Source: Thermodesulfobacteriota bacterium (GTDB lineage Bacteria; Desulfobacterota_D; UBA1144; Nemesobacterales; CSP1-2). Taken from it: a stretch of DNA of 49,804 nt. Positions within the stretch are counted from its first letter, which is position 1, and each line of letters opens with the position of its first letter. Shown here in pieces: positions 19,915-37,902 of this stretch. Position numbers and translations under genes: made by a program. The stretch spans positions 1 through 49,804 of the forward strand of contig DATMAT010000003.1 of assembly GCA_035559815.1 (NCBI GenBank). The letters run 5' to 3'. The notes beneath the pieces were generated by a model. The model was not told the DNA's origin. It worked only from the letters and a program-made list of their open reading frames with translations, and searched no databases.

Positions 19915-19947
19915 TTGACATCAAAGTTTAAAGCGATATGTTATAAT
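19915..19947 (+). promoter_or_regulatory. Promoter upstream of the first small exported protein
   Basis: TTGACA (19915-19920) can pair with TATGTT (19937-19942, 16-bp spacer) or with a perfect TATAAT (19942-19947, 21-bp spacer). A long spacer of the second kind would need an activator. Transcription would start within a few bases of ATG 19959, so the leader is very short. The gap 19576-19914 shows nothing else. Confidence 0.5.
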
Positions 19948-19958
19948 TGTACCAAGCA

Positions 19959-20348
19959 ATGAAATACCTAAGCCTTTTATTAGTTTCCAGTGTGTTCTTC
20001 TGCTATACGGGTATTTGTTACGCCTTATACGCCTCTCTCACCCCAAATATAATGAAAACAAGTTGTCATACATCCCATCAGGATAAGGTTCCCAAAACTG
20101 ATGCCACCACTTATTCATACAATAACCCAGATTCCGAAATGAATCAGATCGGTATGTGTCAGGATGCGCTTCTAAGTGCGCACAATAGTTACGACCTTAA
20201 TCTAAAAGACACCCTTTTATACTCTCTTGTAGTAAACTTACCAAGCATAAAGATTAATAAACCTTTCAATTCTCTTTTGGACTCAGAAACAAACAGGGAA
20301 TACCGGCCACCCGATTTATTCATCTTAAATTCCAGCCTTTTACTATAA
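19959..20348 (+). CDS. Small exported protein, paralog A (possible metal-responsive leader ORF)
   Basis: I cannot name the family. The 129-residue protein has a signal peptide or membrane anchor (S-L-L-L-V-S-S-V-F-F-C-Y-T-G-I-C), a hydrophilic middle with a Cys-His patch (T-S-C-H-T-S-H), then S-E-M-x6-C-Q-D-A-L, and a C-terminus R-P-P-D-L-F-I-L-N-S-S-L-L-L. Paralog B at 35012-35404 shares the F-C-Y-T-G-I anchor, S-E-M ... C-x-D, and the same ending. Both lie ahead of a secreted-protein gene with an AGTGGT hairpin in between. The general shape (short, exported, Cys/His, R-P-P near the end) recalls CopL/DUF2946-type proteins linked to copper; that link is inference. Confidence 0.7.
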   Translation: MKYLSLLLVSSVFFCYTGICYALYASLTPNIMKTSCHTSHQDKVPKTDATTYSYNNPDSEMNQIGMCQDALLSAHNSYDLNLKDTLLYSLVVNLPSIKINKPFNSLLDSETNREYRPPDLFILNSSLLL

Positions 20349-20365: not shown

Positions 20366-20435
20366 GCTTCTGCCTAGTGGTATAACGCCCAATAATACCA
20401 CTATTTTGCCTTTAACCTTATCCTTCGGCAGAAGC
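20366..20435 (+). promoter_or_regulatory. Two nested stems between paralog A and the lipoprotein gene
   Basis: The inner stem TAGTGGTA/TACCACTA (20375-20382/20396-20403) is followed by ATTTTG. The outer stem GCTTCTGCC/GGCAGAAGC (20366-20374/20427-20435) encloses it. It starts 18 bases after the stop of paralog A and ends 52 bases before the next start codon. It could be an attenuator or a partial terminator controlling the downstream operon. Confidence 0.6.
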
Positions 20436-20486
20436 CAGGCCACCGATAAATCCATTCGAAAAATCGAGAATAGGAGGTATAAAGCC

Positions 20487-20918
20487 ATGAGGAGATATGG
20501 TAGTGGCAAAAAAATGATTTGGGGACTCATCTTGTCTGTCCTATTGATTCCCCTATTTATAACCGCTTGTGCCCAGACGAAAGGAGAGTTCGTTAAGATT
20601 AGCACTGACATTTATCCGCCAAAGTCAGAGGCGCAAGAGATTCTAGTTACTAGGAGTGATGCCTACAGGCCTTACAAAGAGATTGGCATTGTGAAAGCAG
20701 AGGGAAATCAACATACCGATGAGGCGGCATGCCTTGCGAAAATAAGCCAGATTGCCAGAGAATCTGGAGCAGATGCGGTTATAAAGGCCCATGTAGAACA
20801 AAGGGAGAGATTAGTTTCCAGGCAACTCACGGCAGATAAGCTTCGTAGAACCGTGAAATATAAAGTCAAAGAACCGGTTTGTGAGGGAACTGCGGTTGTT
20901 TTCACGAATAACGTATGA
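20487..20918 (+). CDS. Lipoprotein of unknown function, first gene of the efflux cluster
   Basis: The 143-residue protein has a lipoprotein signal ending L-F-I-T-A-C. The mature part contains Y-K-E-I-G-I-V-K-A-E-G and, after a Cys-containing helix, E-S-G-A-D-A-V-I-K-A-H-V-E. This resembles the fold of YbjQ-like or DUF4156-like lipoproteins (strand, helix, G-A-x-A-V-I strand). AGGAGG lies 9 bases before ATG 20487; the open frame upstream is not used. A strong terminator follows directly, so it may be transcribed apart from the pump genes. Function is unknown; envelope stress or metal response is suggested only by position. Confidence 0.65.
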   Translation: MRRYGSGKKMIWGLILSVLLIPLFITACAQTKGEFVKISTDIYPPKSEAQEILVTRSDAYRPYKEIGIVKAEGNQHTDEAACLAKISQIARESGADAVIKAHVEQRERLVSRQLTADKLRRTVKYKVKEPVCEGTAVVFTNNV

Positions 20919-20927
20919 ATAAGCAAC

Positions 20928-20974
20928 AAAGGCTCTTCCCCTGAGCAAATTTTGGGAAGAGCCTTTCGCTTTTA
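20928..20974 (+). terminator. Rho-independent terminator
   Basis: A perfect 13-bp stem, AAAGGCTCTTCCC with GGGAAGAGCCTTT (20928-20940/20954-20966), is followed by CGCTTTTA. It separates the lipoprotein gene from the next secreted-protein gene. Confidence 0.85.
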
Positions 20975-21030
20975 TGAAGCAAGAGATTGAAAAGAAAATC
21001 AAAATTTCTACAAGAAGGAGACAACAAACA

Positions 21031-21408
21031 ATGGTCAATACTCGCAAATCAATCGTGATTTTAGGAATGGGATTGTTTTTATTGTCTTTTTCCAATGCTT
21101 TTGGTGAATCAATGCCTGCTAAAGAAGTAACGATTAAAGGCACAGTAATAGAGCCCTTTTGTTTGATAACTATGAATATGAAAGGAGAGGGTCATAGGGA
21201 ATGCGCTGTAAGTTGCGCTAAGGCCGGGATGAGCCTGGCAATCATTGATGAGAACGGAAAGATTTACCCAATCCTATCAAAAGAAGCTGTTACCAACCCG
21301 AATCAAACAGTTCTCGATTATGTCGAAAAACCAATAACCGTTAACGGGACTCTCTTCGAAAGCGGAGGAGTCAGCTACGTCATGGTTAAAGAGGTCAAGA
21401 GTAGTTAA
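21031..21408 (+). CDS. Small secreted OB-like protein with Cys pair
   Basis: The 125-residue protein has a signal peptide (I-V-I-L-G-M-G-L-F-L-L-S-F-S-N-A-F-G). The mature domain reads I-K-G-T-V-I-E-P-F-C ... G-H-R-E-C-A-V-S-C-A-K-A-G-M-S-L-A-I-I-D-E-N-G-K-I-Y and closes with I-T-V-N-G-T-L-F-E-S-G-G. This pattern recurs in uncharacterised exported proteins of many diderms; three Cys (C, C-x3-C) and a His could bind a metal or haem. AAGGAG 10 bases upstream selects ATG 21031. It precedes cusCBA in the same direction. Confidence 0.7.
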   Translation: MVNTRKSIVILGMGLFLLSFSNAFGESMPAKEVTIKGTVIEPFCLITMNMKGEGHRECAVSCAKAGMSLAIIDENGKIYPILSKEAVTNPNQTVLDYVEKPITVNGTLFESGGVSYVMVKEVKSS

Positions 21409-21440
21409 TTCCTATTTTAACAAAAAAGGAGGTGATTAGC

Positions 21441-21800
21441 GTGCTTAAGAAAACGTCAAGTTTAGTAACAGTATTGATGGCAACCTTACTAATTGTCTCC
21501 CTCATCTCTGGTGTTATCGGCAAGGCTTCCGAAGAGGAAGAGATAAGCCAATTAATAGAGACCGCTTCAACCCCAGAAGATCATATGAAAATTGCCGGAT
21601 TCTACGAGAAGGAGGCGGCAAAACTAGAGCAGAGAGCAAACTCCCATGCCGCTATGGCTGATGCCTACAGGAGAAGGACTAAGCCTATTCCCGGCATGGT
21701 TCAACACTGCTCAAATCTGTCGCAGAAATATAAAGACTCAGCGGAGGAATATAGAGCAATGGCATCAGAGCATACGAAAATGGCCCAGGAACTGCAATAG
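21441..21800 (+). CDS. Small secreted helical protein, unknown
   Basis: The 119-residue protein has a signal peptide (about 5-26), then an all-helical mature part: S-T-P-E-D-H-M-K-I-A-G-F-Y-E-K-E-A-A-K-L-E, M-V-Q-H-C-S-N-L, and a final Y-K-D-S-A-E-E-Y-R-A-M-A-S-E-H-T-K-M-A-Q-E-L. Conserved His/Cys/Met in an antiparallel helix pair hint at a four-helix-type metal binder, but that is inference. AGGAGG with 8 bases to GTG 21441 sets the start. It sits 77 bp upstream of cusC. Confidence 0.65.
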   Translation: MLKKTSSLVTVLMATLLIVSLISGVIGKASEEEEISQLIETASTPEDHMKIAGFYEKEAAKLEQRANSHAAMADAYRRRTKPIPGMVQHCSNLSQKYKDSAEEYRAMASEHTKMAQELQ

Positions 21801-21877
21801 AAGTATCAAGGGCTTTCCCAGGCATGGTGAAAAACCTGCCTGGGTAGCCTCATGACCTTGGTTAACGGAGGTTGAAG

Positions 21878-23137
21878 ATGAAATTAATGCTTTTAGCAGT
21901 AGCTCTCATGATTCTCGGCGTAGTAAATGCATCCACCGAAGAAGAGACTACATCACTGGAGTCTCTGGTCGAGGAAGCCTTACAAAACAATCCGGAGATA
22001 AAGGCGGCAAAGGCCAGGTGGGAAGCCTCTGTAAAACGCCCGTCTCAGGAAGGATCTCTTCCTGACCCGATGATTGGAGTTACATGGAGAAATGTACAGT
22101 TTGATCGTATAACCCTAACCGAAGACCCGGACAGCATGCTCATGTTCTCATTCTCCCAAGAATTCCCCTTCCCAGGGAAACTTTCACTCAAGGAAAAAAT
22201 AGCCGGTGAAGAGGCAAACGCTGAGGAGAAATCCTATGAAGCTACAACCAGAAAAATAGTTGCGGACCTCAAAGAGGCCTACTATGACTGGTATCTAGTA
22301 GATAAGACCATAGAACTGACCAAAAGGAACAAAGAGCTTCTAGAGAGTTTTGTGAAAATAGCCGAAGCTAAATACGAAGTAGGTATGGGAATTCAGCAGG
22401 ACGTGCTGAAAGCACAGGTGGAATTATCAAAATTCATCGAGCAGCTTGAAATCCTCGATGCGAGAAAAGGAGTGGTAGAGGCCAGGTTAAGAAGTATTGT
22501 AAATCGTCCTGCCGATTCGCCTTTGGGCAATCCAGGAACCCTAGAGGAATCGACAAAACCTTTGAATACAGACGAGCTTTACCAGCTGGCTCAGGATAAT
22601 GCTCCGCTCCTTAAGATGAGAGAGAAGCAGATTGTTCGAGAAGAGCAAGCCCTAAATCTGGCTAAAAGGGAATATTATCCGGACTTTGCTATAGAGGTCG
22701 GGCCTGGAATCATGGGGATGGAGGACAACGGAGTACAGGGGGTGTGGGAAGTAACACTTGGATTAAGAGTCCCACTCTACTTTTGGCGGAAGCAGAGGTT
22801 CGGAGTCGAGGAAGCGGCAGCACAGCTCAACGCGGCTAAGGATGACTACTCTAGTACAAAACAACTCTTACTGTTTGGCATAAAGGACAAATATCTAACT
22901 GCGAAAACTGCAGAGAACCTTTTAAGGCTCTATAAGGAGGGAATAATTCCACAGTCTAAGACGTCGCTGGAATCAGCGGTTTCGGCTTATCAGGTTGGGA
23001 AGGTCGACTTCCTAACTCTCCTGAATAATCTCGTAACCCTATTCAATTTTGAGATCGAGTACCACAGACAGCTTGCCGAATACCAAAAGGCCATTGCAAG
23101 ACTAGAGGAAATCATTGGGGTGGAGTTGATGAAATGA
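21878..23137 (+). CDS. TolC-family outer-membrane efflux protein (CusC/CzcC-like)
   Basis: The 419-residue protein has a signal peptide, then two outer-membrane-efflux repeats: S-L-E-S-L-V-E-E-A-L-Q-N-N-P-E-I-K-A-A near 28, a matching L-A-Q-D-N-A-P-L-L-K-M-R near 245, and long coiled-coil helices between. Trimers of this family form the outer channel of tripartite pumps; here it should receive Cu/Ag from CusA-CusB. GGAGG sits 6 bases before ATG 21878. A short palindromic repeat and 168 bp separate it from cusB. Confidence 0.9.
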   Translation: MKLMLLAVALMILGVVNASTEEETTSLESLVEEALQNNPEIKAAKARWEASVKRPSQEGSLPDPMIGVTWRNVQFDRITLTEDPDSMLMFSFSQEFPFPGKLSLKEKIAGEEANAEEKSYEATTRKIVADLKEAYYDWYLVDKTIELTKRNKELLESFVKIAEAKYEVGMGIQQDVLKAQVELSKFIEQLEILDARKGVVEARLRSIVNRPADSPLGNPGTLEESTKPLNTDELYQLAQDNAPLLKMREKQIVREEQALNLAKREYYPDFAIEVGPGIMGMEDNGVQGVWEVTLGLRVPLYFWRKQRFGVEEAAAQLNAAKDDYSSTKQLLLFGIKDKYLTAKTAENLLRLYKEGIIPQSKTSLESAVSAYQVGKVDFLTLLNNLVTLFNFEIEYHRQLAEYQKAIARLEEIIGVELMK

Positions 23138-23212
23138 TTATCAAGTGATGATTTTATGGAAATAATGAGGTACCACGTCACTAAAGATGGTTCGTAATGG
23201 CAAAGCAAAAAT

Positions 23213-23278
23213 GTCATTGCGAGTAGTGAAGCAACGAAGCAATCCGAAGATTAGATTCCTCGCTTCACTCGGAATGAC
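23213..23278. repeat. Palindromic repeat (GTCATTGCGAG family) between cusC and cusB
   Basis: Starts GTCATTGCGA and ends GGAATGAC, with a central inverted GAAGCAA...TTCGC/CGCTTC core. It is related to 49661-49728 and 5991-6054. Confidence 0.8.
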
Positions 23279-23305
23279 AAGAAGTTATGGTAGGAGGGTA
23301 GCAAA

Positions 23306-24811
23306 ATGACAAAAGAAAAAAGAAAAACGATATTTAAAGCTGGCTTAACCTTGGTCCTTTTCGTACTGATATTTCTCGGTCTATATAGCTACGGCTACAA
23401 GATTCCAGTTATAAACCAAATCCCATTTCTTTCTACGAAACACGAACATCAATATAGACCTGTCTTTAGTGAAGAGGGAGAAATCGAATACTGGACTTGC
23501 ACCATGCACCCATCGGTAAAATTAAAGGACCCGGGTACCTGTCCCCTATGCGGTATGGATTTAGTACCGGTGAAGAAGAAAGAGATTACCCAGAGGGAAA
23601 CAGAATCAGAGAAGATGGAAGGTATGGAGGGAATGCCAGGAATGGGTGGTATGCAAGGGATGCAGGGTATGCCCGGTATGGGAGATACGAGCAAAACTAA
23701 AGATGCTCAGTCAAAATCAGCATTCACTGTAAGCCCTCAAAGACAGCAACTAATCGGCGTAAAAACAGAACCGGCTAAGGTGAGGCCTATGAAAAAGGTA
23801 ATACGTACTGTAGGGATAGTAGAGTTAGATGAGACCAAGATTAAGGATGTTAACACCAAAATAAGCGGCTGGATTGATAAAGTGTTCGTCGATTTTAAGT
23901 GGGAGCACGTAAAAAAAGGAGAGCCACTCTTCTCAATCTACAGCCCTGAGCTTGTATCCACCCAGGAGGAATACCTCCTTGCCCTCAGGTCTAAAAAAAT
24001 TCTGGGCGATAGTCAGTTTGCTGAAATAGCAAGCAGTGCTAATTCCCTTCTGGAGGCGTCCCGCACAAGGCTTTTACTTTGGGACATTTCGGAAGATCAA
24101 ATTAGAAAGATAGAGAGAACGGGTAAAGTAAGTAAGAGCCTAACTATCCATTCACCGGCCACAGGTTTCGTCACAGAAAAGAATGTATTCGAGAACATGT
24201 ATGTGGAACCTAACACCAAAGCCTACACGATTGCAGACCATAGCGTAGTCTGGGTCGATGCGGACATATACGAGAATGAAATCTCTTTAGTTAAGTTAGG
24301 ACAGGAGGCTAAAATGACGGTGGCCTCACTTCCGGGTGAAGAGTTTCCAGGAAAGATAATTTACATCTTACCCCACCTTATGCCAGAGACCAGGACAATA
24401 AAGGTTCGCTTCGGGTTTCCAAATCCCGATTTAAAGCTACTTCCCCAAATGTATGCCAATGTAGAGCTTGAAATACCCCTAGGAGAAAGATTAACCGTCG
24501 CAGAGAGTGCAGTTCTACGAACAGGAAAACAAGACCTTGTTTTCGTGGATAAAGGCGAAGGAAATATGGAGATAAGAAGAATCGAGCTAGGTCAAAATAC
24601 CGATGGAATGTATGAGGTTCTAGGAGGACTGAAGGAGGGAGAAAAGGTAGTTTCACGCGCTAACTTCCTGATTGATGCAGAGAGTAAAATCCAGGCCGCC
24701 GTAGCTACCTGGGAGAAAGATACAGATGGCAATGATGAGGCAATATATGAGATGGAATTTCTCAAAGAAAATGGCGATGCAGAAAAGGATAAACAAAAAC
24801 ATGTTCACTGA
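23306..24811 (+). CDS. cusB: CusB-type periplasmic adaptor with heavy-metal-binding domain
   Basis: The 501-residue membrane fusion protein has a TM anchor (about 10-28). A heavy-metal-binding domain follows (W-T-C65-T-M-H68-P ... G-T-C79-P-L-C82-G-M-D-L), then a Met-rich stretch (103-127: repeated G-M / G-M-P-G-M) and the adaptor core: barrel-sandwich hybrid near 185-300, beta-barrel, and membrane-proximal domain. The Cys/His/Met residues should collect Cu(I) or Ag(I) in the periplasm and hand it to CusA. GGAGGG lies 7 bases before the ATG. cusB-cusA are 62 bp apart with a palindrome in the spacer. Confidence 0.92.
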   Translation: MTKEKRKTIFKAGLTLVLFVLIFLGLYSYGYKIPVINQIPFLSTKHEHQYRPVFSEEGEIEYWTCTMHPSVKLKDPGTCPLCGMDLVPVKKKEITQRETESEKMEGMEGMPGMGGMQGMQGMPGMGDTSKTKDAQSKSAFTVSPQRQQLIGVKTEPAKVRPMKKVIRTVGIVELDETKIKDVNTKISGWIDKVFVDFKWEHVKKGEPLFSIYSPELVSTQEEYLLALRSKKILGDSQFAEIASSANSLLEASRTRLLLWDISEDQIRKIERTGKVSKSLTIHSPATGFVTEKNVFENMYVEPNTKAYTIADHSVVWVDADIYENEISLVKLGQEAKMTVASLPGEEFPGKIIYILPHLMPETRTIKVRFGFPNPDLKLLPQMYANVELEIPLGERLTVAESAVLRTGKQDLVFVDKGEGNMEIRRIELGQNTDGMYEVLGGLKEGEKVVSRANFLIDAESKIQAAVATWEKDTDGNDEAIYEMEFLKENGDAEKDKQKHVH

Positions 24812-24819
24812 TCTGTATT

Positions 24820-24847
24820 GTACAGACGCATTGCAATGCGTCTCTAC
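24820..24847. repeat. 28-bp palindromic repeat in the cusB-cusA spacer
   Basis: The core is the perfect 20-base palindrome AGACGCATTGCAATGCGTCT (24824-24843), with near-matching GTAC/CTAC ends. This type of unit is widely dispersed in bacterial intergenic DNA. Confidence 0.8.
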
Positions 24848-24873
24848 ATTTAAAAACAAACAGGAAAGGGAAA

Positions 24874-27800
24874 ATGATAGAAAAAATAATCGAATACACT
24901 GCTAAAAACAGATTCTTAACAATAGTCCTTGTGCTCTTCATTGCCACATGGGGCTACTGGGCTATGAAGAACACTCCGCTCGATGCTATCCCGGATCTCT
25001 CGGATGTGCAGGTAATTGTCTTTACAGAGTGGGAGGGAAGAAGCCCTGATCTTGTCGAAGACCAGATTACATACCCGATTGCCACCACAATGATCGCTGC
25101 TCCCAAAGTGAGATATGTACGTGGACAGTCCATGTTCGGCTTCTCCTTTATCTATATTATCTTCGAGGATGGAACCGATATCTATTGGGCAAGAAGCCGG
25201 GTTCTTGAATACCTGAATGAAGTTACCGGTCAACTTCCGGAGGGAGTTACTCCGAAACTGGGTCCTGATGCGACAGGCGTAGGATGGGTTTTTGAATATG
25301 CCCTTGTTGATGAGACCGGAAAGCACGATTTAGCGGAGCTTCGTTCTTTCCAAGATTGGTATCTCCGTTACTGGCTTGAGTCTGTTCCCGGAGTTGCAGA
25401 GGTAGCCAGTATAGGCGGTTTTGTAAAGCAATATCAGGTAGAGATTGACCCCAATAAACTCTTCGCTTACGGCATCCCTATGAACAAAGTTGTAGAAGCA
25501 ATTAGAACAAGTAACAACGACGTGGGAGGAAGGGTAGTAGAGTTTGCCGCGACCGAGTTCTTCGTAAGGGGCAGAGGGTACATAAAATCAGTAGAAGACA
25601 TAGAGAAAATTCCCGTAAGCACTGACGGAAACGGTACACCTGTCTATATACGAGATATTGCAAACGTGCAGTTAGGGCCAGATATAAGAAGAGGACTTGC
25701 AGAACTCGACGGAAAGGGAGAGACGGTTGGTGGAATCGTCGTCATGCGCTACGGTGAAAATGCTCTTGATGTTATAGAAGGTGTAAAGCAGAAAATAGAA
25801 AATATAAAACCCTCCCTGCCAGAGGGTGTAGAAATCATAACTACTTATGACCGTTCCGACCTCATTGAGCGCGCCATAGAAACTCTGAAGGTAAAGCTTT
25901 TTGAAGAGAGCATTATCGTAAGCCTGGTGATCATCATTTTCCTATTTCATTTTAGAAGTGCAATAGTTCCTATACTTACTATTCCACTTGCTGTCCTGAT
26001 GGCTTTTATTCCCATGTACTACATGAAGCTAACATCAAATATAATGTCTCTCGGCGGAATTGCCATTGCGATAGGGGCTATGGTGGATGCCTCTATAGTT
26101 CTGGTCGAAAACGTGCATAAGAGGCTCGAAAAGACTGTAGGGGCGAGGCATGCCTCGCCCCTACAAATAAAGATAGATGCGATGAAAGAGGTAGGCAAAC
26201 CGATTTTTTTCGCCCTTCTTGTCATAACAATCTCTTTCCTCCCTGTGTTTACACTGGAATACCAGGAGGGAAGGCTCTTTAAACCCCTTGCCTATACCAA
26301 GACCTTCTCCATGTTCTTCGCGTCCCTACTCGCCATAACTATAACCCCGGCTTTGATTATCCTTCTAATAAGAGGAAAGATTAAGCCCGAAGAAAAGAAT
26401 CCTATAAACCGGTTCCTCATTCGGATTTATAACCCCGTAGTGAACTTGGCTCTACGTTTTAAAAAGACGGTGATAGCGGTATCGGCTGTGATACTGCTCA
26501 TAACCGTTATTCCATTTCTAAGGCTCGGTTCCGAGTTTATGCCCCCGTTAAATGAGGGAACTATTCTCTATATGCCTACCGCTGTTCCCGGGATATCCAT
26601 AACAGAGGCAGCCAAGATTCTTCAGATCCAAGATAAGATGCTAATGCAGTTTCCGGAGGTAGAAAGGGTATTTGGAAAAATAGGACGCGCCGAAAGCCCG
26701 ACAGACCCTGCACCTCTCAGCATGGTAGAGACAGTTATTACACTAAAGCCAGAACACCAATGGCGGGAAGGAATGACCTGGGACAAGCTCATATCAGAGA
26801 TGAATCAAACGGTAAAAGTCCCAGGAATGGCAAACATATTCTGGATGCCTATACAAACCAGGAACGAAATGCTTTCTACCGGGTTCAGAAGTAACCTAGG
26901 AATTAAGGTTTTTGGTTCTGATCTTGAGACTATAGAAAAGATTGCGGTAGATATCGAACAGGCGTTGTCTAAAGTTCCTGGAACGAGAAGCGTGTTTGCA
27001 GAGAGGGTCACCGGTGGCTATTTCCTGGATTTTAAGATCAACCGGCAGCAGGCGGCAAGATATGGTCTTACTGTAGGTGATGTAGAAGAAATTATCGAAA
27101 CCTCTATAGGCGGTAAAAACATATCTCAAACAATAGAAGGACGGGAGAGATATCCGGTCAATGTCAGATACCAAAGGGAATTCAGAATGGACATTAAAGA
27201 GCTGGAAAGGGTGCTCGTACCAACCCCTGCCGGCGCACAGGTTCCTATATCACTCCTAGCCGACATGTACTTTAGTACCGGACCCTCTGAGATAAAAAGC
27301 GAGGACGCGCAGAGGGTCGGCTATGTATTTATTGATGTGGAAGGAAAGGACTATGAGGGTTATGTAAATAAGGCAAGAGAAATTATAGGGGAAAATGTCA
27401 AACTCGAGCCAGGCTACCATATAGAGTGGGCAGGGCAGTATCAATACCTACTCAGGGTCAAAGAGAAACTAAAATATATTATACCTCTCACTATCTTTAT
27501 CATTTTCCTCCTACTCTACATCAACTTTAACTCCGTAACTGAAACCCTGATCGTGCTTCTCTCGGTGCCATTCGCTCTAGTCGGCAGTATCTGGCTTCTC
27601 TATATTCTCGGTTACAACACCAGCGTTGCCGTCTGGGTCGGAATTATTGCCCTCGCCGGACTGGCCGCTCAAACCGGAGTGGTAATGATAATTTACCTAG
27701 ATGAGTTCTATGAGAAGATGGTCAAAGAAGGCAAAACGGGCTGGGATAACCTGGCAAAAGCAATACACGACGGAGCCGTTCAGAGAGTGCGCCCCAAAAT

Positions 27801-28002
27801 GATGACTGTTATGGCGATGATTATGGGGCTTCTTCCTCTTATGTGGAGTCACGGCACCGGTGCAGACGTGATGAAAAGAATAGCAGCGCCCATGGTTGGA
27901 GGACTTGTAACGTCAACCATTCTCACACTCGTCATAATCCCGGCGATATATGCAATATGGAAAGGGAGGACTTTAAAAACTAAAGAGGAAGATCGAGGGT
28001 GA
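24874..28002 (+). CDS. cusA: CusA-type heavy-metal RND efflux pump
   Basis: The 1042-residue protein has the full RND layout: TM1 near 13-30, first periplasmic domain (30-335), TM2-6 (about 340-490), second periplasmic domain and TM7-12 to the C-terminus. The TM4 segment G-A-M-V-D-A-S-I-V-L-V-E-N places it with the Cu/Ag (HME4) subgroup, and D-A-I-P-D-L-S-D-V-Q and F-M-P-P-L-N-E-G-T are typical of heavy-metal RND proteins. It uses the proton gradient to export Cu(I)/Ag(I) through CusB and CusC. Residues after V-H-K-R-L-E-K are encoded by an in-frame palindrome (26136-26165) in the loop following TM4. Confidence 0.94.
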   Translation: MIEKIIEYTAKNRFLTIVLVLFIATWGYWAMKNTPLDAIPDLSDVQVIVFTEWEGRSPDLVEDQITYPIATTMIAAPKVRYVRGQSMFGFSFIYIIFEDGTDIYWARSRVLEYLNEVTGQLPEGVTPKLGPDATGVGWVFEYALVDETGKHDLAELRSFQDWYLRYWLESVPGVAEVASIGGFVKQYQVEIDPNKLFAYGIPMNKVVEAIRTSNNDVGGRVVEFAATEFFVRGRGYIKSVEDIEKIPVSTDGNGTPVYIRDIANVQLGPDIRRGLAELDGKGETVGGIVVMRYGENALDVIEGVKQKIENIKPSLPEGVEIITTYDRSDLIERAIETLKVKLFEESIIVSLVIIIFLFHFRSAIVPILTIPLAVLMAFIPMYYMKLTSNIMSLGGIAIAIGAMVDASIVLVENVHKRLEKTVGARHASPLQIKIDAMKEVGKPIFFALLVITISFLPVFTLEYQEGRLFKPLAYTKTFSMFFASLLAITITPALIILLIRGKIKPEEKNPINRFLIRIYNPVVNLALRFKKTVIAVSAVILLITVIPFLRLGSEFMPPLNEGTILYMPTAVPGISITEAAKILQIQDKMLMQFPEVERVFGKIGRAESPTDPAPLSMVETVITLKPEHQWREGMTWDKLISEMNQTVKVPGMANIFWMPIQTRNEMLSTGFRSNLGIKVFGSDLETIEKIAVDIEQALSKVPGTRSVFAERVTGGYFLDFKINRQQAARYGLTVGDVEEIIETSIGGKNISQTIEGRERYPVNVRYQREFRMDIKELERVLVPTPAGAQVPISLLADMYFSTGPSEIKSEDAQRVGYVFIDVEGKDYEGYVNKAREIIGENVKLEPGYHIEWAGQYQYLLRVKEKLKYIIPLTIFIIFLLLYINFNSVTETLIVLLSVPFALVGSIWLLYILGYNTSVAVWVGIIALAGLAAQTGVVMIIYLDEFYEKMVKEGKTGWDNLAKAIHDGAVQRVRPKMMTVMAMIMGLLPLMWSHGTGADVMKRIAAPMVGGLVTSTILTLVIIPAIYAIWKGRTLKTKEEDRG
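26136..26165. repeat. 30-bp perfect palindrome inside cusA
   Basis: The plus strand reads TGTAGGGGCGAGGCA followed by its exact reverse complement. It adds about ten codons (V-G-A-R-H-A-S-P-L-Q) in frame, with no stop, to a loop that varies among RND pumps. Confidence 0.88.
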
Positions 28003-28089: not shown

Positions 28090-28356
28090 TCAGGTCGGTT
28101 GTCCTAATCCAGAAGCTTTCAATGTAGTCTCATCAGGACCGCGCCTTACACAGCAATCGGCAAGCTTTCCATCTATCACCACGGCGGGAATTGAACGAAT
28201 ACCCAAGCTTTTGGCTCGAATGGCCGCATCTGAATAATTCATATCCAGAACGCTGACTTCACAGTAGGGACAGGCAACTTGATTGACCAACTCAATTGTT
28301 TCTTTGCAGGTAGGACATCCCGCGCTAAAAATCTCAATCTTGCGTTTGGTGTTCAT
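28090..28356 (-). CDS. Small thioredoxin/glutaredoxin-like protein of the mer operon
   Basis: The 88-residue protein has a thioredoxin-like fold: I-E-I-F-S-A-G-C-P-T-C-K at the N-terminus (C-P-T-C redox pair), a second C-P-Y-C, and the cis-Pro segment I-R-S-I-P-A-V-V-I-D-G. A D-C-C pair lies near the end. No signal peptide is seen, so it should act in the cytoplasm, perhaps reducing thiols that carry Hg(II) or passing the ion to MerA. GGAGG with 8 bases to ATG 28356 sets the start. It is the last gene of the mer operon. Redox role is inferred. Confidence 0.78.
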   Translation of the reverse strand: MNTKRKIEIFSAGCPTCKETIELVNQVACPYCEVSVLDMNYSDAAIRAKSLGIRSIPAVVIDGKLADCCVRRGPDETTLKASGLGQPT

Positions 28357-28413
28357 TATTATCACCTCCTTCTTCAGTGTTTATCTGTATTCCTTCTTGA
28401 GTTAGTAGTCCTG

Positions 28414-28797
28414 CTATAGTCTTTGATTAAAGCCTGTCTTACGTTTCACAAACTCTTGTTCACAGGTTTTCTTAAGATAAATATCCCAAACGGAAGCTGT
28501 AACCAAGCCTATGAGTCCGATATAAACTAGCGGCTTTGAAAACCAGATAGAAGCAAAAACAACTATGGCGCTTACTACGACAAGGATTAGGCTACCATTA
28601 CTTCTGTGGGACTTTGATGATTTATAAATACCGTAAATGCTAATACCGAGAAAAATTACAAGAAGGGGAATAAGAATCTTATCATTAATTAAAAATCCAG
28701 CGCCAATGCTTGTGAGGAAAGCTAAAAGAGCAGGCGTTCCAATACAACATAGGCCTGCAAAGATTGATCCGAGTGAACCGATGATTTTTGATATCAT
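28414..28797 (-). CDS. MerC-like inner-membrane mercury transporter
   Basis: The 127-residue protein has four membrane segments (about 5-25, 35-55, 67-85, 88-105). The first holds G-L-C-C-I-G-T-P-A, the Cys pair that binds Hg(II) in the MerC/MerF/MerT group; the size and fourth helix fit MerC better than MerF. The tail is short and basic. MerC-type proteins bring Hg(II) in for reduction by MerA. It lies 33 bp after merA in the same direction, so the operon has two uptake routes (MerT and this one). Confidence 0.75.
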   Translation of the reverse strand: MISKIIGSLGSIFAGLCCIGTPALLAFLTSIGAGFLINDKILIPLLVIFLGISIYGIYKSSKSHRSNGSLILVVVSAIVVFASIWFSKPLVYIGLIGLVTASVWDIYLKKTCEQEFVKRKTGFNQRL

Positions 28798-28830
28798 TTT
28801 ATACCACTTGATTTATAGTTCCCTGAGTAT

Positions 28831-30519
28831 TCAGTCAGCACAGCAGCTAAGCTTTGTTACGTCTTTATCAAAGGACTGGGCACAGAGCTTTATGGATTCT
28901 GAAAGGGTAGGATAAACATCTATTGTATCCAGCACGTCCTGGATAGTCATTCCGTACTTAACAAAGAGTGCGGCCTTTTGAATAATATCCGCCGCATGAG
29001 GAGCAACCATTCGAACTCCAAGAATCCGATTTGTTTCTTCTTCCACGATCATTTTCATGAGTCCTCTAGTATCCTGAATTATTGCAGCCTTGGGAACGTG
29101 TTTAAAATCCAAATATCCCACTTTAACTCTGTAACCTTTATCTCTTGCTTCCCTTTCTCCGAGTCCAACCCCCGCAACCTCTGGTGTTGTGAATACTGCA
29201 TAAGGAACAGAGGGGTAATCTATCTTTTTGTGATTTCCTGTAAGGGCATTTTCCGCTGCAATGCTTCCCGCTCTTGCAGCAATTGTGACTAGCATAGGCA
29301 CTCCGCTCACTACATCTCCGGCAGCCCATACGTGGGCTACCGAGGTTTTCATCTCGTCATCAACAATTATTCCACCCTTCTTGTCTACTTTAATTCCCAC
29401 TTTCTCAAGCCCAAGCCCGGCGCTGTTTGGTCTTCTTCCGGTGGCCACAAGAAGCACTTCACCCTCAAACTCTATTTTCCTACCCTTTATCTCCGCTATT
29501 ATTTTTTTAGTTCTCCCGTTGCTACTTGCACTTAAAACATTCGCCTCTGTGTATATCTCGATACCCTCCTCTTCAAGATATCTCTTTAGAGTATCGGAGA
29601 TTTCCTCTTCCTCTCCCGGAAGGAGTCTTGGCAAAACTTCAAGAACCGTAACTTTAGAGCCGAAGTGGGCATACATTTGAGCAAATTCCAATCCAACAGC
29701 GCTGGCGCCAAGAACGATAATTGATTTAGGAAGTTCTTTAAGCTCAAGAGTAGTTGTGCTTGTTAAATAGTCAACTTGATCAATTCCCTCTATAGGAGGT
29801 ATCCAGGGTGATGAGCCTGTAGCTACTATAAACCTTTCAGACCTGTAGTTTTTATCTCCAATTCTTACCTCTTTTTTCGATACGAAATAAGCTTTTTCAT
29901 GAAAAAAAGTAATATCCGGATACGCTTCCAGAACATCCCAGTACTTCATCTGTCTAAACTCATCAAGCATAATGTCTTTCTGAGAGATTAATTTTGCGAA
30001 ATCCACTTTTCCCTGATGTGTTTCTACCCCCTCATAACCGTTTCTTTTTGGCATGTGATAAAGTTCCGCAGCTTTAATTAGAAATTTTGAAGGAACACAT
30101 CCTCTATTAAGACAGGTTCCACCTATAACATCTTCCTCTGCTATGGCTACCTTTGCACCAAGATCTGATGCTCTTATGGCTGCGGCGAATGCGGCAGAAC
30201 CACCTCCCAAGACTATTAGATCGAAATCCACCTTATTCTTTTCTTTAGCGAAAGGTATAACTTTCTCATCTTGTGGCTTGTTTTCAGCTTCGGGCAGACT
30301 GGCACTGTAATGTCTGTGTTTATTAAAAGTATCTATTATCTCTTGAATACTGGTTTCTCCTTCAATGTATTTAACCTCCGCTTTAGCTTCCTTATAGTTT
30401 GCTTTCGCTCCCACTACTCCCTTTATTTTTTTCAAAGTAGCCTCAACAGATTTATCACAATGTGAACAAGTCATACCATCTACCTTGAGCACAGTGTTTA
30501 CAGTGTTTTGTTTACCCAT
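28831..30519 (-). CDS. merA: Mercuric reductase
   Basis: MerA reduces Hg(II) to volatile Hg(0) with NADPH and FAD. The 562-residue protein has an N-terminal heavy-metal-associated domain (G-M-T-C18-S-H-C21) and a linker to about 95. The flavoprotein core begins L-I-V-L-G-G-G-S-A-A and has the redox-active G-G-T-C136-L-N-R-G-C141-V-P-S-K. The C-terminal L-S-C559-C560-A-D is the vicinal Cys pair that hands Hg(II) to the active site and distinguishes MerA from lipoamide dehydrogenases. AGGAGG lies before the ATG. It follows merP after 103 bp. Confidence 0.96.
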   Translation of the reverse strand: MGKQNTVNTVLKVDGMTCSHCDKSVEATLKKIKGVVGAKANYKEAKAEVKYIEGETSIQEIIDTFNKHRHYSASLPEAENKPQDEKVIPFAKEKNKVDFDLIVLGGGSAAFAAAIRASDLGAKVAIAEEDVIGGTCLNRGCVPSKFLIKAAELYHMPKRNGYEGVETHQGKVDFAKLISQKDIMLDEFRQMKYWDVLEAYPDITFFHEKAYFVSKKEVRIGDKNYRSERFIVATGSSPWIPPIEGIDQVDYLTSTTTLELKELPKSIIVLGASAVGLEFAQMYAHFGSKVTVLEVLPRLLPGEEEEISDTLKRYLEEEGIEIYTEANVLSASSNGRTKKIIAEIKGRKIEFEGEVLLVATGRRPNSAGLGLEKVGIKVDKKGGIIVDDEMKTSVAHVWAAGDVVSGVPMLVTIAARAGSIAAENALTGNHKKIDYPSVPYAVFTTPEVAGVGLGEREARDKGYRVKVGYLDFKHVPKAAIIQDTRGLMKMIVEEETNRILGVRMVAPHAADIIQKAALFVKYGMTIQDVLDTIDVYPTLSESIKLCAQSFDKDVTKLSCCAD

Positions 30520-30622
30520 TTTTTAACCTCCTACTTTTCTTCGAGATATCAACTTTAATTTCTTAGTACATGAATACATATCAAAAAAACTTCAAATATA
30601 ACTCTTCCTATCTGAAGAAAAT

Positions 30623-30943
30623 CTAATACAACACTTCACCTTTATTTCTATCCTTAAGTGGAACAGCCTTAAAACCGGCTTTCCCCACAGCTTTTACCAT
30701 ATCCTCGATCTTGACCTTGCCTTCTATATAATTTATATGAGCTATATCGCCCTCCATATTTACTTTCTCTACCCCACCTAACCTCTTTAGGGCTTTCGAT
30801 ACAGTAACACCACATAGGGAACAATAAATCCCTCCTATCTTGAGCGTAGCCTGCTTTGTACTGTTCTCAGCCGATAGAGTTGAAAGATTAAATGTTGTAA
30901 AAATAAGCGTTAGAGCAACTACTAGCACTTTTAATGACTTCAT
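30623..30943 (-). CDS. merP: Periplasmic Hg-binding protein MerP
   Basis: The 106-residue protein has a signal peptide (V-L-V-V-A-L-T-L-I-F, cleavage near S-A-E-N) and one heavy-metal-associated domain with G-G-I-Y-C-S-L-C (MerP Cys pair) and the usual beta-alpha-beta pattern. It captures Hg(II) in the periplasm for MerT. AAGGAGGT precedes the ATG; merT ends 22 bp upstream. The motif is Y-C-S-L-C rather than the common M-T-C-x-x-C. Confidence 0.88.
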   Translation of the reverse strand: MKSLKVLVVALTLIFTTFNLSTLSAENSTKQATLKIGGIYCSLCGVTVSKALKRLGGVEKVNMEGDIAHINYIEGKVKIEDMVKAVGKAGFKAVPLKDRNKGEVLY

Positions 30944-30965
30944 TTTTCATACCTCCTTTTCGTCA

Positions 30966-31322
30966 TTAAGCTAAGAGAAAAGCCAAGATATAAGGAGAGA
31001 GAATAAAACCAATGACCAGCACAGTTGCTACCCAGAGTATAATTTTATTCAGTCTTCTCTTTTCCGGATTCACAGCACAATTTGAACCCGGAGCACATTC
31101 CTCTCCACCTCTATAAGTAAAAAAGAAACCAAGTGCCAAAAATCCAAGAGCCACTGTCCCAAAGAGTAATCTATACTGCTCAAGCTTTGCAAAGAAAGCT
31201 GCTCCACTTAGTCCTAGAACTACAAATACCAGGGGACCTATACAGCATAGTGATGCTAAAAGTCCTGATATTACAGAGCCTATAGAGGAAAGAAGCGTAA
31301 TTTTTCCAGCTTTGTCAGCCAT
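30966..31322 (-). CDS. merT: Mercuric ion transporter MerT
   Basis: The 118-residue protein has three membrane segments. The first contains S-L-C-C-I-G-P-L (Cys pair for Hg(II)); a loop between segments 2 and 3 has C-A-P-G-S-N-C, the second MerT Cys pair. It passes Hg(II) from MerP to the cytoplasm. Its start overlaps the end of merR by 8 bp and has no good Shine-Dalgarno, so it is probably translated by coupling to merR. Confidence 0.92.
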   Translation of the reverse strand: MADKAGKITLLSSIGSVISGLLASLCCIGPLVFVVLGLSGAAFFAKLEQYRLLFGTVALGFLALGFFFTYRGGEECAPGSNCAVNPEKRRLNKIILWVATVLVIGFILSPYILAFLLA

Positions 31323-31758
31323 CTTTTACTCTACTTGTATTGTTAGCATCTTTTTTCGCCCTGGTATCAAGCACCTCTATTATCGGACATTCACCCGTTG
31401 GTCCCTGTCCACTGCACATCGTTACAAGCTTTGTGAGTGCTTTCTTTATACTCTTGAGAGTACGGATTTTTTCTTCTACGTCGGCAATCTTAATTTCTGC
31501 CAATCTTTTCACGTCACCGCAGGTAGTGCTCGGATCAACTCGTAAAGACAGAAGTTCCGAGATCTCCTTGAGAGAGAACCCCAGTTCCTTAGCGCGCTTG
31601 ATGAATTGAATACGTGCGACGACATCCTGGGGGTACTGCCTGTAACCAGGGTCACGGCGAGGTGGCTTGGGTATAAGCCCTCGTCTTTCGTAATAACGTA
31701 CTGTTTCAACATTTACTTCAGCTTTTTTGGCCAGTTTACCAATGGTCAAATGTTTCAT
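31315..31758 (-). CDS. merR: Hg(II)-responsive regulator MerR
   Basis: The 147-residue protein has the N-terminal winged helix (T-I-G-K-L-A-K-K-A-E-V-N-V-E-T-V-R-Y-Y-E-R-R-G-L-I) and a dimerisation helix. The mercury ligands are Cys 80, 115 and 124, with exactly the spacing of the classical MerR (35 and 9 residues). It represses the promoter without Hg and twists it open with Hg. Unlike the divergent layout of Tn501/Tn21, merR here is the first gene of the operon it controls, so it would autoregulate. GAGGTG precedes the ATG. Confidence 0.95.
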   Translation of the reverse strand: MKHLTIGKLAKKAEVNVETVRYYERRGLIPKPPRRDPGYRQYPQDVVARIQFIKRAKELGFSLKEISELLSLRVDPSTTCGDVKRLAEIKIADVEEKIRTLKSIKKALTKLVTMCSGQGPTGECPIIEVLDTRAKKDANNTSRVKDG

Positions 31759-32195: not shown

Positions 32196-32468
32196 ATGAA
32201 AAACACAAATGAACCCAATAACCATGAATATACCAAAAGGATAAATATAATTAAAGGCCAACTGGACGGCCTACTTAGAATGATCGAGGAAGACGAATAC
32301 TGCATCGACATTCTCGACCAAAGTCTGGCTATTCAAAACTCCTTGAGGAGCCTGGACGCACTGATATTTGAGAGGCATCTGCAGAAACACGTCGTTCATC
32401 AGTTTAAGAATGAACGAGAAAAGGCCATCAAGGAATTATCAAAGCTATTCAAAAAGGTAAATCGCTAA
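32196..32468 (+). CDS. CsoR/RcnR-family metal-sensing repressor
   Basis: The 90-residue all-helical repressor has [16 protein letters not shown] near 15-30 and metal-ligand positions Cys 36 (E-Y-C-I-D-I-L), His 61 and His 65 ([10 protein letters not shown]). CsoR copper sensors have Cys-His-Cys here; RcnR nickel/cobalt sensors have Cys-His-His plus an N-terminal His, which is not at the matching place (Thr 4; there is a His at 10). So it is a CsoR-length protein with an RcnR-like third ligand. It controls its own promoter and the Cu-ATPase 11 bp downstream. Family is certain; metal is open. Confidence 0.9.
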
Positions 32469-34942: not shown

Positions 34943-35011
34943 AAGACTGGGTATGTGAATCAAAAATATTGATTGTGAGACCTCAAACGGCTAGAATATG
35001 ACTCAATCAGT

Positions 35012-35404
35012 ATGAATAATATAAGCTTCCTTGTGGTGATCAGTCTTTTGTTCTGTTATACCGGAATCCTTTCCAGCGCTCATCATTCCGCAGTTTTACC
35101 AGATAAAGGAGATAAGGTATTAACCCACCAGCATGGCCCTAAACACATAGATCATCATGACCCTACCAAGCCGATTTCTCCTAAAAACACGACTTCGGAA
35201 ATGCACGAAAGCATAAAGTGCTGTGATTATGCGTTGCCCAACGCTCCGCCCGTCTTTGGCTCCGACACGGTGCTTCTTTTGTTGACGGTTAGTAATTCAG
35301 TTAGTGGCATCGATAACTCTCGAAAGTTTATCTTGAATCCAAGAATATTCGGAAAACACGACCGGCCGGAGTTATTCATAACCAACTCTTCGTTATTAAT
35401 CTAA
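35012..35404 (+). CDS. Small exported protein, paralog B (possible metal-responsive leader ORF)
   Basis: The 130-residue protein has the signal/anchor S-F-L-V-V-I-S-L-L-F-C-Y-T-G-I. A His-rich middle (H-Q-H-G-P-K-H-I-D-H-H-D) and S-E-M-H-E-S-I-K-C-C-D-Y-A-L follow, and the end is D-R-P-E-L-F-I-T-N-S-S-L-L-I. It matches paralog A (19959-20348) at both ends and around S-E-M ... C-x-D. It lies 69 bp after copA and is followed by a hairpin and the His-rich gene. The His/Cys content suggests Cu binding; role is unknown. Confidence 0.7.
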   Translation: MNNISFLVVISLLFCYTGILSSAHHSAVLPDKGDKVLTHQHGPKHIDHHDPTKPISPKNTTSEMHESIKCCDYALPNAPPVFGSDTVLLLLTVSNSVSGIDNSRKFILNPRIFGKHDRPELFITNSSLLI

Positions 35405-35479
35405 AAAGGATTCATCACCTTAATTTTGTCAGTGGTGCTAATGGTAAAGGTACCACTGTCCCCGGAGTATCTATCCTTT
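35405..35479 (+). promoter_or_regulatory. Two nested stems between paralog B and the His-rich protein gene
   Basis: The inner stem CAGTGGT/ACCACTG (35430-35436/35452-35458) is enclosed by AAAGGAT/ATCCTTT (35405-35411/35473-35479). It has the same order and the same AGTGGT core as 20366-20435, although the rest of the sequence differs. Confidence 0.55.
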
Positions 35480-35511
35480 CTAAAACTTAAGTAATAAAGG
35501 AGTGAGCTCAA

Positions 35512-36630
35512 ATGAAGTATTTACGAATAACATTAATTATTTTTGCAAGTATCCTCCTATTCTCTACCTGGAGCGTCTTTTCAGCCAAAGGACAATGGGT
35601 AAAAAGAGACCACCGATGGCAACTGCGTGGCCCCTGGAACTGGTCTCTAAGCCGTGAGTTGCCCCAGCTATTTCGGGAATTCAACGGAATTGACTTTGGC
35701 CACGCTCGTGCGGCCCTAGCCTTACTCAAAACGCAAGATCCACACCAGATCGAGAAAGCACGCCTGGAAGTGCTTAACTTTATATTCAGTTCGCCTAGCG
35801 TTGCCCCAGACGAAGTGCAAATAGCACCTACTTTCGCCGAGATGGCATGGGAGGTTCAGCGCACATTTAATTGGGCGCACACCTTCCACCGCAGTCTTTA
35901 TGATCTCCTTTCGAGCGACAAGGTAAAGGACAAAGATAGCGCTTACCAAAAAATTCTTGCTGATTACCTAAAGATGCCGGAAGCAATCACCACTCACCCG
36001 CTTGACCACCACGGAAGACTATGGAGCTTCCCCGAATCCAAGTCTTTTCGCGACAAGTTCCCTAAATTTAATTCTCAGATCTGGGCTTATCACTGGCTCC
36101 AAGCTGCCGTATATGATGTTCAGCTTATGGGTGACGTAAAGAAACAAAAAGAGCTAATGCCGAAGATCATTGAGCACTACCATGGCTATCTCAAAAACCC
36201 GCCACTCGAATGGCAGTACATGCCCATGATGTATGAAGTAGCACCCGATTTCTCCAGCAAGTATCCGGAGGCGGCGGCAATCTTCGATAACCTGCACATG
36301 CTCCACGACAATGTAGATGACATACTGAGCCGCCCCGATCTTTACCCGACTTTGGAGGCAAAGCGGGAAGCAATCTTGAAAAGACTGGATATTTACCTTC
36401 ATCGTAACCACGAGACTAGGGAACGCTATGGTGAATACCATGCAACCACATCGAACGGCGAACACGCCGGACATGAAATGAGTGGACACGACATGGAAAT
36501 GGACATGGGTCCTCGTCCGCCATCGGCTGAGGAGGTACTTTTCGGAAAGGCATCAGGGGACCATAGCCATCAACCCGAAGAGATATCCGCTCCTCATCGC
36601 CACAAGCACTACACCGGAGGTGATAAATGA
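35512..36630 (+). CDS. Periplasmic protein with His/Met-rich C-terminus, unknown
   Basis: I do not know a named family. The 372-residue protein has a signal peptide (1-24) and a helical core of about 290 residues with W-A-H-T-F-H-R-S-L-Y, W-A-Y-H-W-L-Q, I-F-D-N-L-H-M-L-H-D and Y-M-P-M-M-Y. The tail (about 320-372) is full of H, M and D/E: N-G-E-H-A-G-H-E-M-S-G-H-D-M-E-M-D-M-G and H-S-H-Q. The many His and Met residues suggest Cu or Ag binding in the periplasm. Its stop overlaps the start of the outer-membrane gene (ATGA), so they are coupled. Similar unnamed proteins exist elsewhere, as far as I recall. Confidence 0.7.
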   Translation: MKYLRITLIIFASILLFSTWSVFSAKGQWVKRDHRWQLRGPWNWSLSRELPQLFREFNGIDFGHARAALALLKTQDPHQIEKARLEVLNFIFSSPSVAPDEVQIAPTFAEMAWEVQRTFNWAHTFHRSLYDLLSSDKVKDKDSAYQKILADYLKMPEAITTHPLDHHGRLWSFPESKSFRDKFPKFNSQIWAYHWLQAAVYDVQLMGDVKKQKELMPKIIEHYHGYLKNPPLEWQYMPMMYEVAPDFSSKYPEAAAIFDNLHMLHDNVDDILSRPDLYPTLEAKREAILKRLDIYLHRNHETRERYGEYHATTSNGEHAGHEMSGHDMEMDMGPRPPSAEEVLFGKASGDHSHQPEEISAPHRHKHYTGGDK

Positions 36631-37400
36631 ACCGCTTGTTCATCATATATCTGCTATCCGTCTTAGCTCTTGGATTAAATGGTTCCCTCGTACAAGCAAT
36701 AGACCACAGCAACTTGGACGAAGGACGGCCGTTACGCGTGGAAGACCCTTACCCTATTGCATACCGAGAATTAGCGCTCGAAGCCGGAGTGGGATTTAGT
36801 ATAAACCGCCGTAGCGACGACAGCTTTCTTTCCTCCGTTGAACTTCTTTACGGCGCTTACCCCAACCTTCAGGTAGGTATTGGTACAAGTCTTTCTACCG
36901 AACCTGACAACGAGCAAGCCAAATTCGGCGATATCGAACTGGAGGCCCTCTACAACTTCAATCAGGAGACTCTCCGAATTCCGGCCCTGGGTGTAAAGCT
37001 AGAGTTCACTATCCCCTCCGGAGTTGATTCGCCCGGAACCGCGGCAAAAATCAAGGGACTTATGACAAAATCTTACGGCCGCCTTAGCACCCACATCAAT
37101 GCCGGTTATCAGTATCTTAACGGGGATAGAGATGGAAAGAGAGACAACCGTCTCGAATTCATACTAGGAGCCAGTTATCCGGTAGGTGCACCCCAGTATA
37201 CACGGCTGACCATCATAGGAGATGTCTTTACCGACCTATCCGTCCAGCGTGATGACTCGAGTATTGTTGGCACAGAATTCGGTTTCCGTTATCAATTGAC
37301 CCAAAGAACCGTATGGGATGCCGGAGCGGGAACGGAGTTCGCCGGTGAATCCGAGCGTTCGTTATTTTACTTCACAACCGGTATATCTGTTGGGTTCTAG
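36627..37400 (+). CDS. Outer-membrane beta-barrel protein
   Basis: The 257-residue protein has a signal peptide (about 1-24), then alternating amphipathic strands typical of a barrel (E-L-A-L-E-A-G-V-G-F-S-I, N-L-Q-V-G-I-G-T-S-L-S, G-V-K-L-E-F-T-I-P-S-G). It ends with an aromatic strand F-Y-F-T-T-G-I-S-V-G-F, the usual BAM signal. It resembles the MetA-pathway/transporter-like barrel group. It is translationally coupled to the His-rich protein (ATGA overlap), so the pair may move metal across the outer membrane or sequester it there. Substrate is unknown. Confidence 0.78.
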   Translation: MNRLFIIYLLSVLALGLNGSLVQAIDHSNLDEGRPLRVEDPYPIAYRELALEAGVGFSINRRSDDSFLSSVELLYGAYPNLQVGIGTSLSTEPDNEQAKFGDIELEALYNFNQETLRIPALGVKLEFTIPSGVDSPGTAAKIKGLMTKSYGRLSTHINAGYQYLNGDRDGKRDNRLEFILGASYPVGAPQYTRLTIIGDVFTDLSVQRDDSSIVGTEFGFRYQLTQRTVWDAGAGTEFAGESERSLFYFTTGISVGF

Positions 37401-37774
37401 CTTACTTAAGGAGACTGAAAATTATTTCGGCAACCAGTTTATGGAGATATAGAGGCTTAAGTGTTTAAATATAATTAGAATCATGGCAAAGTGAATTCGA
37501 TATAATTTTTAAGGTCATAATATTAAGAGTAGCTCACCAGCTCCCTAGATATAATCAAGGCAGGTTTTGCTGGTGACTCGATGGCTGCAGGGAACGTATA
37601 TATGAGTTCTTTACAATTGCCTTTTATATGCGCTTTATCTCTAAATTTGTGTATCAAGTTAATAACGTCAATGAATAACGAATATCATTTTATCACCCAA
37701 TGGCTTGTCGTGAAAATAGACTAAGGATAATTTAGATGAACCACACTGCAAGCCGCAGGGTATCCGAAAATTTC

Positions 37775-37829
37775 CCCTCCCTTGACGGGAGGGTATTCAG
37801 CCTGACCTTCCCCCGTGAAAGGGGGAAGG
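37775..37829. repeat. Two hairpin-forming intergenic repeats
   Basis: CCCTCCC/GGGAGGG (37775-37793) and CCTTCCCCC/GGGGGAAGG (37806-37829), joined by TATTCAGCCTGA. Nothing else is seen in the 500-bp gap 37401-37902 apart from AAGGAGG ahead of the next gene. Confidence 0.65.
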
Positions 37830-37902
37830 GACAACTCTTGTGGTAAACCACAGAGAATTTTAAAGTTAAAGACACCAAACCAAGGAATAAGGAGGATAAG
37901 AC

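Follow-up and report, generated by a model that had tools for sequence, protein, structure and literature searches.

Two open reading frames (ORFs), A and B, in the window, that is, the whole stretch of 49,804 nucleotides that was analysed, are probably upstream ORFs that serve as nascent-chain metal sensors, likely for copper, and that by analogy with CutF and CruR would control the next gene through ribosome pausing. The small exported protein that each of them encodes most likely acts during its own synthesis. The protein family, its fixed spacing, the conservation of its ending at the peptide level, the promoter position, the structured and partly covarying RNA, the excess of C over G and the copper-operon context are all directly supported by what is laid out below.

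The putative leader ORFs and their family

ORF A: 19959 to 20348, plus strand, a 129-aa exported putative leader protein ending in EYRPPDLFILNSSLLL-stop
ORF B: 35012 to 35404, plus strand, a 130-aa exported putative leader protein (upstream ORF) that has diverged from the rest of its family
Cys codon of B residue 71, in KCCDYAL: 35222 to 35224, plus strand, a putative metal ligand, invariant in 25 of 25 members
Conserved C-terminal segment of B, HDRPELFITNSSLLI: 35357 to 35401, plus strand, a putative pausing segment in which RP replaces the PP of the family

The frame of A as listed begins at 19947, and 19959 is the start used here. The two proteins are 32% identical over a full-length alignment (E=2e-10) and share FCYTG in the hydrophobic N-terminal segment, which is the signal-peptide region, a C-x-D motif, and C-termini that read LFIxNSSLL[IL]-stop. 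Downstream of each lies the gene of an exported protein with a ribosome-binding site, its ATG at 20488 behind A and at 35512 behind B. The original prediction was that B repeats the layout of A, with ORF, hairpin and exported-protein gene in the same order, and this is borne out by coordinates, alignment and folds. That B is diverged and still keeps the SEM...C-x-D region and the ending also agrees with the alignment; SEM, however, is restricted to A and B within the family, whose invariant residues are two Cys. The N-terminal region proposed as an anchor is indeed kept, but it is more likely a signal peptide than a membrane anchor. Neither A nor B has a match in Pfam or NCBIfam, and the window searched against Rfam gave no RNA family or riboswitch, the sole match being a tRNA.

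Relatives were found in 24 of 61 related genomes with a profile of A and B, and in 24 of the 58 genomes of the phylum, all of one order, with a profile of 25 members. Within this order of Candidatus Dadabacteria 24 of 44 genomes carry the family, in about 30 copies, and none of 14 small genomes of another Dadabacteria family has a member. No member was found in the about 330 genomes sampled outside the phylum, 387 genomes being searched in all. The single extra match among the 387, in genome G098, is to an ORF of another kind, lipoprotein-like and without the ending, and it was rejected as a homologue. Since this only outside match is without the ending and unrelated in character, the family is confined to Dadabacteria in the genomes searched.

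The members are proteins of 123-136 aa with a hydrophobic, signal-peptide-like N-terminus, and so fall within the limits used for CutF-like proteins (below 150 aa, with an N-terminal Sec signal). The signal-peptide-like N-terminus has one of the two Cys that are invariant in the 25 members, and the [SMK]C[CQ]xx[L] or C-x-D region has the other; most members have a CH motif about 30 residues before this region. From the Cys of this region to the end there are 58-65 residues (60 in B, counting Cys 71 itself), the second Cys of L004, at 41 residues from the end, lying outside this range; the distance from the Cys to the first Pro, derived from the Cys-to-end spacing, is 44-51 residues. The last 16 residues are conserved as [H/R]xPP[DE]Lxx.NSSFLL-stop. 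Pro is found at position -13 and at position -12 in 25 of 27 complete endings each, a set that includes A, and PP within the last 15 residues in 25 of 27; a separate search found no PP there in B (RP), L007 and L022. What precedes it makes most endings HDPP or HHPP, with HAPP in L006, HGPP in L014, L019 and L030 and HSPP in L021 and L023; A has EYRPP and B has HDRP.

Mean pairwise identity is 0.53 in the last 16 residues against 0.11-0.13 in the preceding 42. A check for conserved synonymous sites near the stop codon, proposed with the original prediction, came out negative: third positions vary in the conserved codons of the ending, and the selection is therefore on the peptide. The NSSFLL ending could also serve as a tag by which the exported protein is rapidly degraded, and not as a pausing segment, as non-polar C-termini are proteolysis signals and have been discussed as such for CruR (PMC9426467). 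A tag would however not need PP[DE] at a fixed place, and we find this explanation improbable; it is in any case compatible with a nascent-chain sensor, and the two could coexist. AlphaFold2 with the family alignment gave a pLDDT of 56 with residues 3-17 as the sole confident helix, and the mature protein is thus predicted to be without a fold beyond the signal helix.

Promoter position and the RNA behind the ORFs

Promoter-like site of A, TTGACA-16 nt-TATGTT: 19915 to 19942, plus strand, ending 16 nt before the ATG
Promoter-like site of B, TTGATT-17 nt-TAGAAT: 34969 to 34997, plus strand, ending 14 nt before the ATG
Nested hairpin after the stop of A: 20366 to 20435, plus strand, outer stem GCTTCTGCC/GGCAGAAGC, inner stem TAGTGGTAT/ATACCACTA
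Nested hairpin after the stop of B: 35405 to 35479, plus strand, outer stem AAAGGAT/ATCCTTT, inner stem CAGTGGTGCT/GGTACCACTG

TTGAC[AT] stands 35-47 nt upstream of the ATG in 23 of 28 members, where mononucleotide shuffles average 0.9, and at such a position in 1 of 125 control genes of the same genome. A -10-like hexamer follows 15-17 nt past it and ends 7-18 nt before the ATG; the box of B, TTGATT, is a variant off the TTGAC[AT] consensus. By this promoter geometry the transcript would start at most about 12 bases before the ORF, which would therefore be nearly leaderless.

The stems of A pair 20366-20374 with 20427-20435 (outer) and 20375-20383 with 20395-20403 (inner), and those of B pair 35405-35411 with 35473-35479 (outer) and 35430-35439 with 35449-35458 (inner). 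The inner stem of B includes AGTGGT/ACCACT, so that the nested stems with the inner core of A that had been described behind B are there. Compared with dinucleotide shuffles, the claim that the stems are better than chance stands for A (z=-4.3, 0 of 200 shuffles) and more weakly for B (z=-2.0, 8-9 of 200), whose hairpin is only modestly above chance. Over the family, z for the first 90 nt past the stop averages -2.2 in 28 loci, compared with -0.25 for 73 windows taken from downstream genes; the p-value of this test is optimistic because the loci are related, and the family statistics in general pool related loci that are not independent.

When nine A-type loci were aligned, RNAalifold found the outer stem CCTCTGC/GCAGAGG unaided, with changes on both sides in 5 of 9 pairs. 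Outer and inner stem together have 6 such pairs, against 2.0 in shuffles (0 of 500) and 0-2 when the stems are slid. The covariation that had been looked for in the inner stem is found in the outer one; in the inner AGTGGT core 1 of 9 pairs changes on both sides, and 3 of the nine loci do not have this core intact. Scanning the 58 genomes with a covariance model built from the A-type RNA gave 9 matches, all directly 3' of these ORFs, and only the absence of further matches is meaningful, as the 9 are the loci on which the model was trained. The region behind B, at 35402-35503, is the best match to this model within 1 kb, at the right place and weak (10.6 bits, E=0.12). The recurrence of the family, RNA above shuffles and control windows, the covariation in A-type loci and the finding of model matches only behind the ORFs support the proposal that ORF and hairpin form a functional unit.

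That the RNA past the stop is an ordinary attenuator or terminator, to which the ORF is incidental, would agree with the hairpins 3' of the ORFs in most loci. The intergenic intervals of A and B hold no intrinsic terminator, however, the A-type RNA never occurs without the ORF in 58 genomes, and the ending of the ORF is conserved as a peptide; we regard this explanation as very improbable. Two further features were seen in this RNA. In most A-type loci a conserved AAATAAATCC-like stretch lies 3' of the outer stem (20441-20453 in the window). In L008 the stop is followed by two mutually exclusive hairpins, TAGTATAG/CTATACTA and TAGTGGT/ATCACTA; the same region matches the next ribosome-binding site over 8 bp, TCCATCAC/GTGATGGA, and the locus looks switch-like.

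At the family level the strand after the stop complements its own ribosome-binding site more than those of other loci (permutation p=0.001), most strongly ahead of multicopper oxidases. A stem-loop that hides the ribosome-binding site is supported in L014, L019, L020, L022 and L025, and when the first bases past the stop are blocked, the next ribosome-binding site opens up strongly in L014, L019 and L025 and less so in L020, L022 and L029. In L019, L020 and L025 a TCTCCA past the stop is complementary to TGGAGA of the ribosome-binding site. Blocking the same bases in A and B does not free the next site, and sequestration by the post-stop strand is in these two no better than in shuffles. A longer fold of B pairs ATCCTTT with AAAGGA of the ribosome-binding site, but we do not claim this pairing, because the site is not clearly less free (0.20 against 0.28 in shuffles) and the pairing is lost in L028.

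The excess of C over G is +0.085 in the last 180 nt of the ORFs and +0.137 in the 40 nt past the stop, compared to -0.054 and -0.025 in control genes. This composition, to which the region past the stop of B is an exception, resembles Rho-utilisation sites, and the bias may in part come from the content of Pro, His, Ser and Thr. All in all, B is a divergent member and among the weakest of the family: it has RP in place of PP and no CH motif, departs from the TTGACW consensus and shows no C>G bubble past its stop.

Copper genes and known leader peptides

Genes behind A: 20488 to 27999, plus strand, exported proteins at 20488, 20974 and 21432, then efflux genes
Efflux genes of A: plus strand, a CusC-like OEP at 21872, a CusB-like protein at 23306 and a CusA/CzcA-like RND pump at 24874
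Gene behind B: 35512 to 36630, plus strand, an exported protein of 372 aa whose C-terminal part is rich in Met and His
Next gene of the B operon: 36627 to 37400, plus strand, a Phenol_MetA_deg-type outer-membrane protein (PF13557, E=2e-10)

The efflux genes match OEP, HlyD_D23 with HMBD, and ACR_tran in Pfam, and A is the head of a CusCBA-like set. Upstream of B in the window are a CsoR-like repressor and a copper-type P-ATPase. The protein at 35512..36630 has no match in Pfam, NCBIfam or the PDB; a homologue with 70% identity stands behind the related ORF L028 in genome G005, and with its Met/His-rich part, HAGHEMSGHDMEMDMG, it is possibly a new copper-binding protein. The next gene in most loci encodes a CusC-type outer-membrane efflux protein, in L014, L019, L020 and L025 a multicopper-oxidase-like protein (the one fragment of this set that was scanned matches Cu-oxidase_3 at E=5e-4, slightly short of the curated cut-off), and in other loci, A and B among them, a small exported protein or an exported one rich in Met and His. 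In the loci with an assigned start, 88-183 nt separate the ORF from the next gene on the same strand; the filter for CutF-like proteins asks for a downstream gene within 1000 nt, typically a metal-related one. It is from these neighbour genes that we infer copper, with silver or another soft metal as the alternative.

Other features of these loci can be mentioned. The A operon is separated from the B operon by mercury-type resistance genes on the opposite strand (28090-31758), namely a MerR regulator, an HMA protein, small membrane proteins, a thioredoxin-like protein and a mercuric-reductase-like flavoprotein. The non-coding DNA at 37770-37835 has REP-like G/C-rich inverted repeats (CCCTCCCTTGACGGGAGGG, TTCCCCCGTGAAAGGGGGAA). 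In L028 (G005:C10, about 32240-32400) a short MITE-like insert with inverted ends, ACTGTCGAAAAAGT / ACTTTTTCGACAGT, interrupts the B-type ORF, whose ending is retained along with the AGTGGT hairpin and the gene behind it.

Small exported metal proteins are common in copper operons, and the ORFs could encode ordinary small periplasmic proteins, chaperones or buffers, that bind metal and act as finished proteins, with a hairpin that protects the mRNA or separates expression levels. A signal peptide, Cys and His residues and copper operons are what one would expect of such proteins. On the other hand, the ending is conserved to its last residue (0.53) while the 42 residues before it drift (0.11-0.13), no fold is predicted, the RNA behind the ORF is conserved, the spacing is fixed and the start near-leaderless, which makes this explanation unlikely, if the least unlikely of those weighed against a nascent-chain sensor.

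In Rhodobacter capsulatus, CutF is encoded upstream of cutO, has a Cys-Pro spacing of about 45 residues and is followed by a stem-loop that hides the next ribosome-binding site (PMC9973294). Like CutF, the members of the Dadabacteria family are small exported proteins in which some 45 residues separate a Cys metal motif from a Pro-rich one at the C-terminus, with an intergenic stem-loop and a copper gene downstream. In loci before multicopper oxidases the strand after the stop pairs with the ribosome-binding site as in CutF, and in L014, L019, L020 and L025 the ORF stands directly before a multicopper-oxidase-like gene, as with CutF and CutO. The family differs from CutF in its [H/R]xPP[DE]Lxx.NSSFLL ending, its near-leaderless start and its phylum, in having no match to DUF2946, the family to which CutF is assigned, and in that A and B do not sequester the ribosome-binding site. 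The filters by which CutF-like proteins were collected (PMC9973294) would let A through and would exclude B, which has no PP.

CruR (DUF2946), upstream of bfrG in Bordetella pertussis, has a Cys-Pro spacing of 45 residues (PMC9426467), and the ribosome pauses on it when both Pro codons of RAPP occupy the P and A sites. The likeness is in a Cys motif at fixed spacing to a C-terminal xxPP, a long intergenic region, C>G-rich RNA and the place at the head of a copper operon. Compared with the CXXC about 45 residues before RAPP in CruR, the spacing of 44-51 agrees, while the motifs are mostly CC or MC, and HxPP. Unlike in CruR, where it is near the very end, PP is 12-13 residues from the end, and the next genes are mostly for efflux or oxidase and not for uptake. 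DUF2946 (PF11162) matched 1 of 25 members, at E=0.19 only, and nothing in the Dadabacteria genomes searched, and hhalign against six DUF2946 proteins gave Prob 1.5; membership of this family was rejected.

The RAPP-like (RQH) arrest peptides such as SecM and ApdP (PMC10987492, PMC12992588) are likewise encoded by short exported upstream ORFs with a C-terminal motif of the [R/H][A/G]PP type. Among the members, HAPP, HGPP and HSPP fit the C-terminal pattern [R/Q/H]-[A/G/S]-P-P of this class, and the first two are counted as RAPP-like arrest motifs (PMC10987492). Here the motif is however mostly HDPP or HHPP, a conserved tail of 11 residues follows PP, and the link is to copper genes in place of Sec/YidC. 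Proteins of the CzcI/CopL type are by description also small, exported and at the head of metal efflux or oxidase operons, and CzcI has no C-terminal Pro motif (PMC9973294).

Proposed mechanism and its meaning

We hypothesize the following for the nascent-chain sensor. The promoter that abuts the start codon would give a transcript almost without a leader, and the ORF a short exported protein without a predicted fold. With the ribosome at the C-terminal segment, about 44-51 residues past the invariant Cys, this Cys would just be emerging from the ribosome or the translocon, and metal bound to it could alter the length of a ribosome pause near the end of the ORF. The pause may then decide the expression of the next gene, either by keeping Rho off the C-rich RNA, as for CruR, or by shifting the pairing past the stop and with it the access to the next ribosome-binding site, as for CutF. 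For A the outcome of the Rho and CruR type is somewhat more likely, since sequestration of the ribosome-binding site is not supported there. Metal binding, the pause, its coupling to the next gene and the direction of the response are what we infer from the features described above.

With a pause of the RAPP type at PP, 12-13 residues or about 40 nt before the stop, the ribosome would not get as far as the hairpin. Strict conservation to the last residue hints at another pause, in addition to this one or in its place, at the final codons or the stop codon, and this is the least certain step of the model. A more specific version, tentative and rather doubtful, is that the Dadabacteria sensor evolved independently of DUF2946 and CutF, is near-leaderless, and pauses at NSSFLL-stop with PP[DE] in the tunnel and not at PP. 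An origin independent of CutF and CruR is possible.

Few metal-sensing leader peptides have been studied, and these mainly in Proteobacteria. The same spacing in another phylum, without detectable homology, suggests that the design has originated repeatedly, or that it is of an age beyond the reach of sequence search. The family is a clean test set, with one type of ORF that precedes genes for efflux pumps, for oxidases and for other exported proteins.
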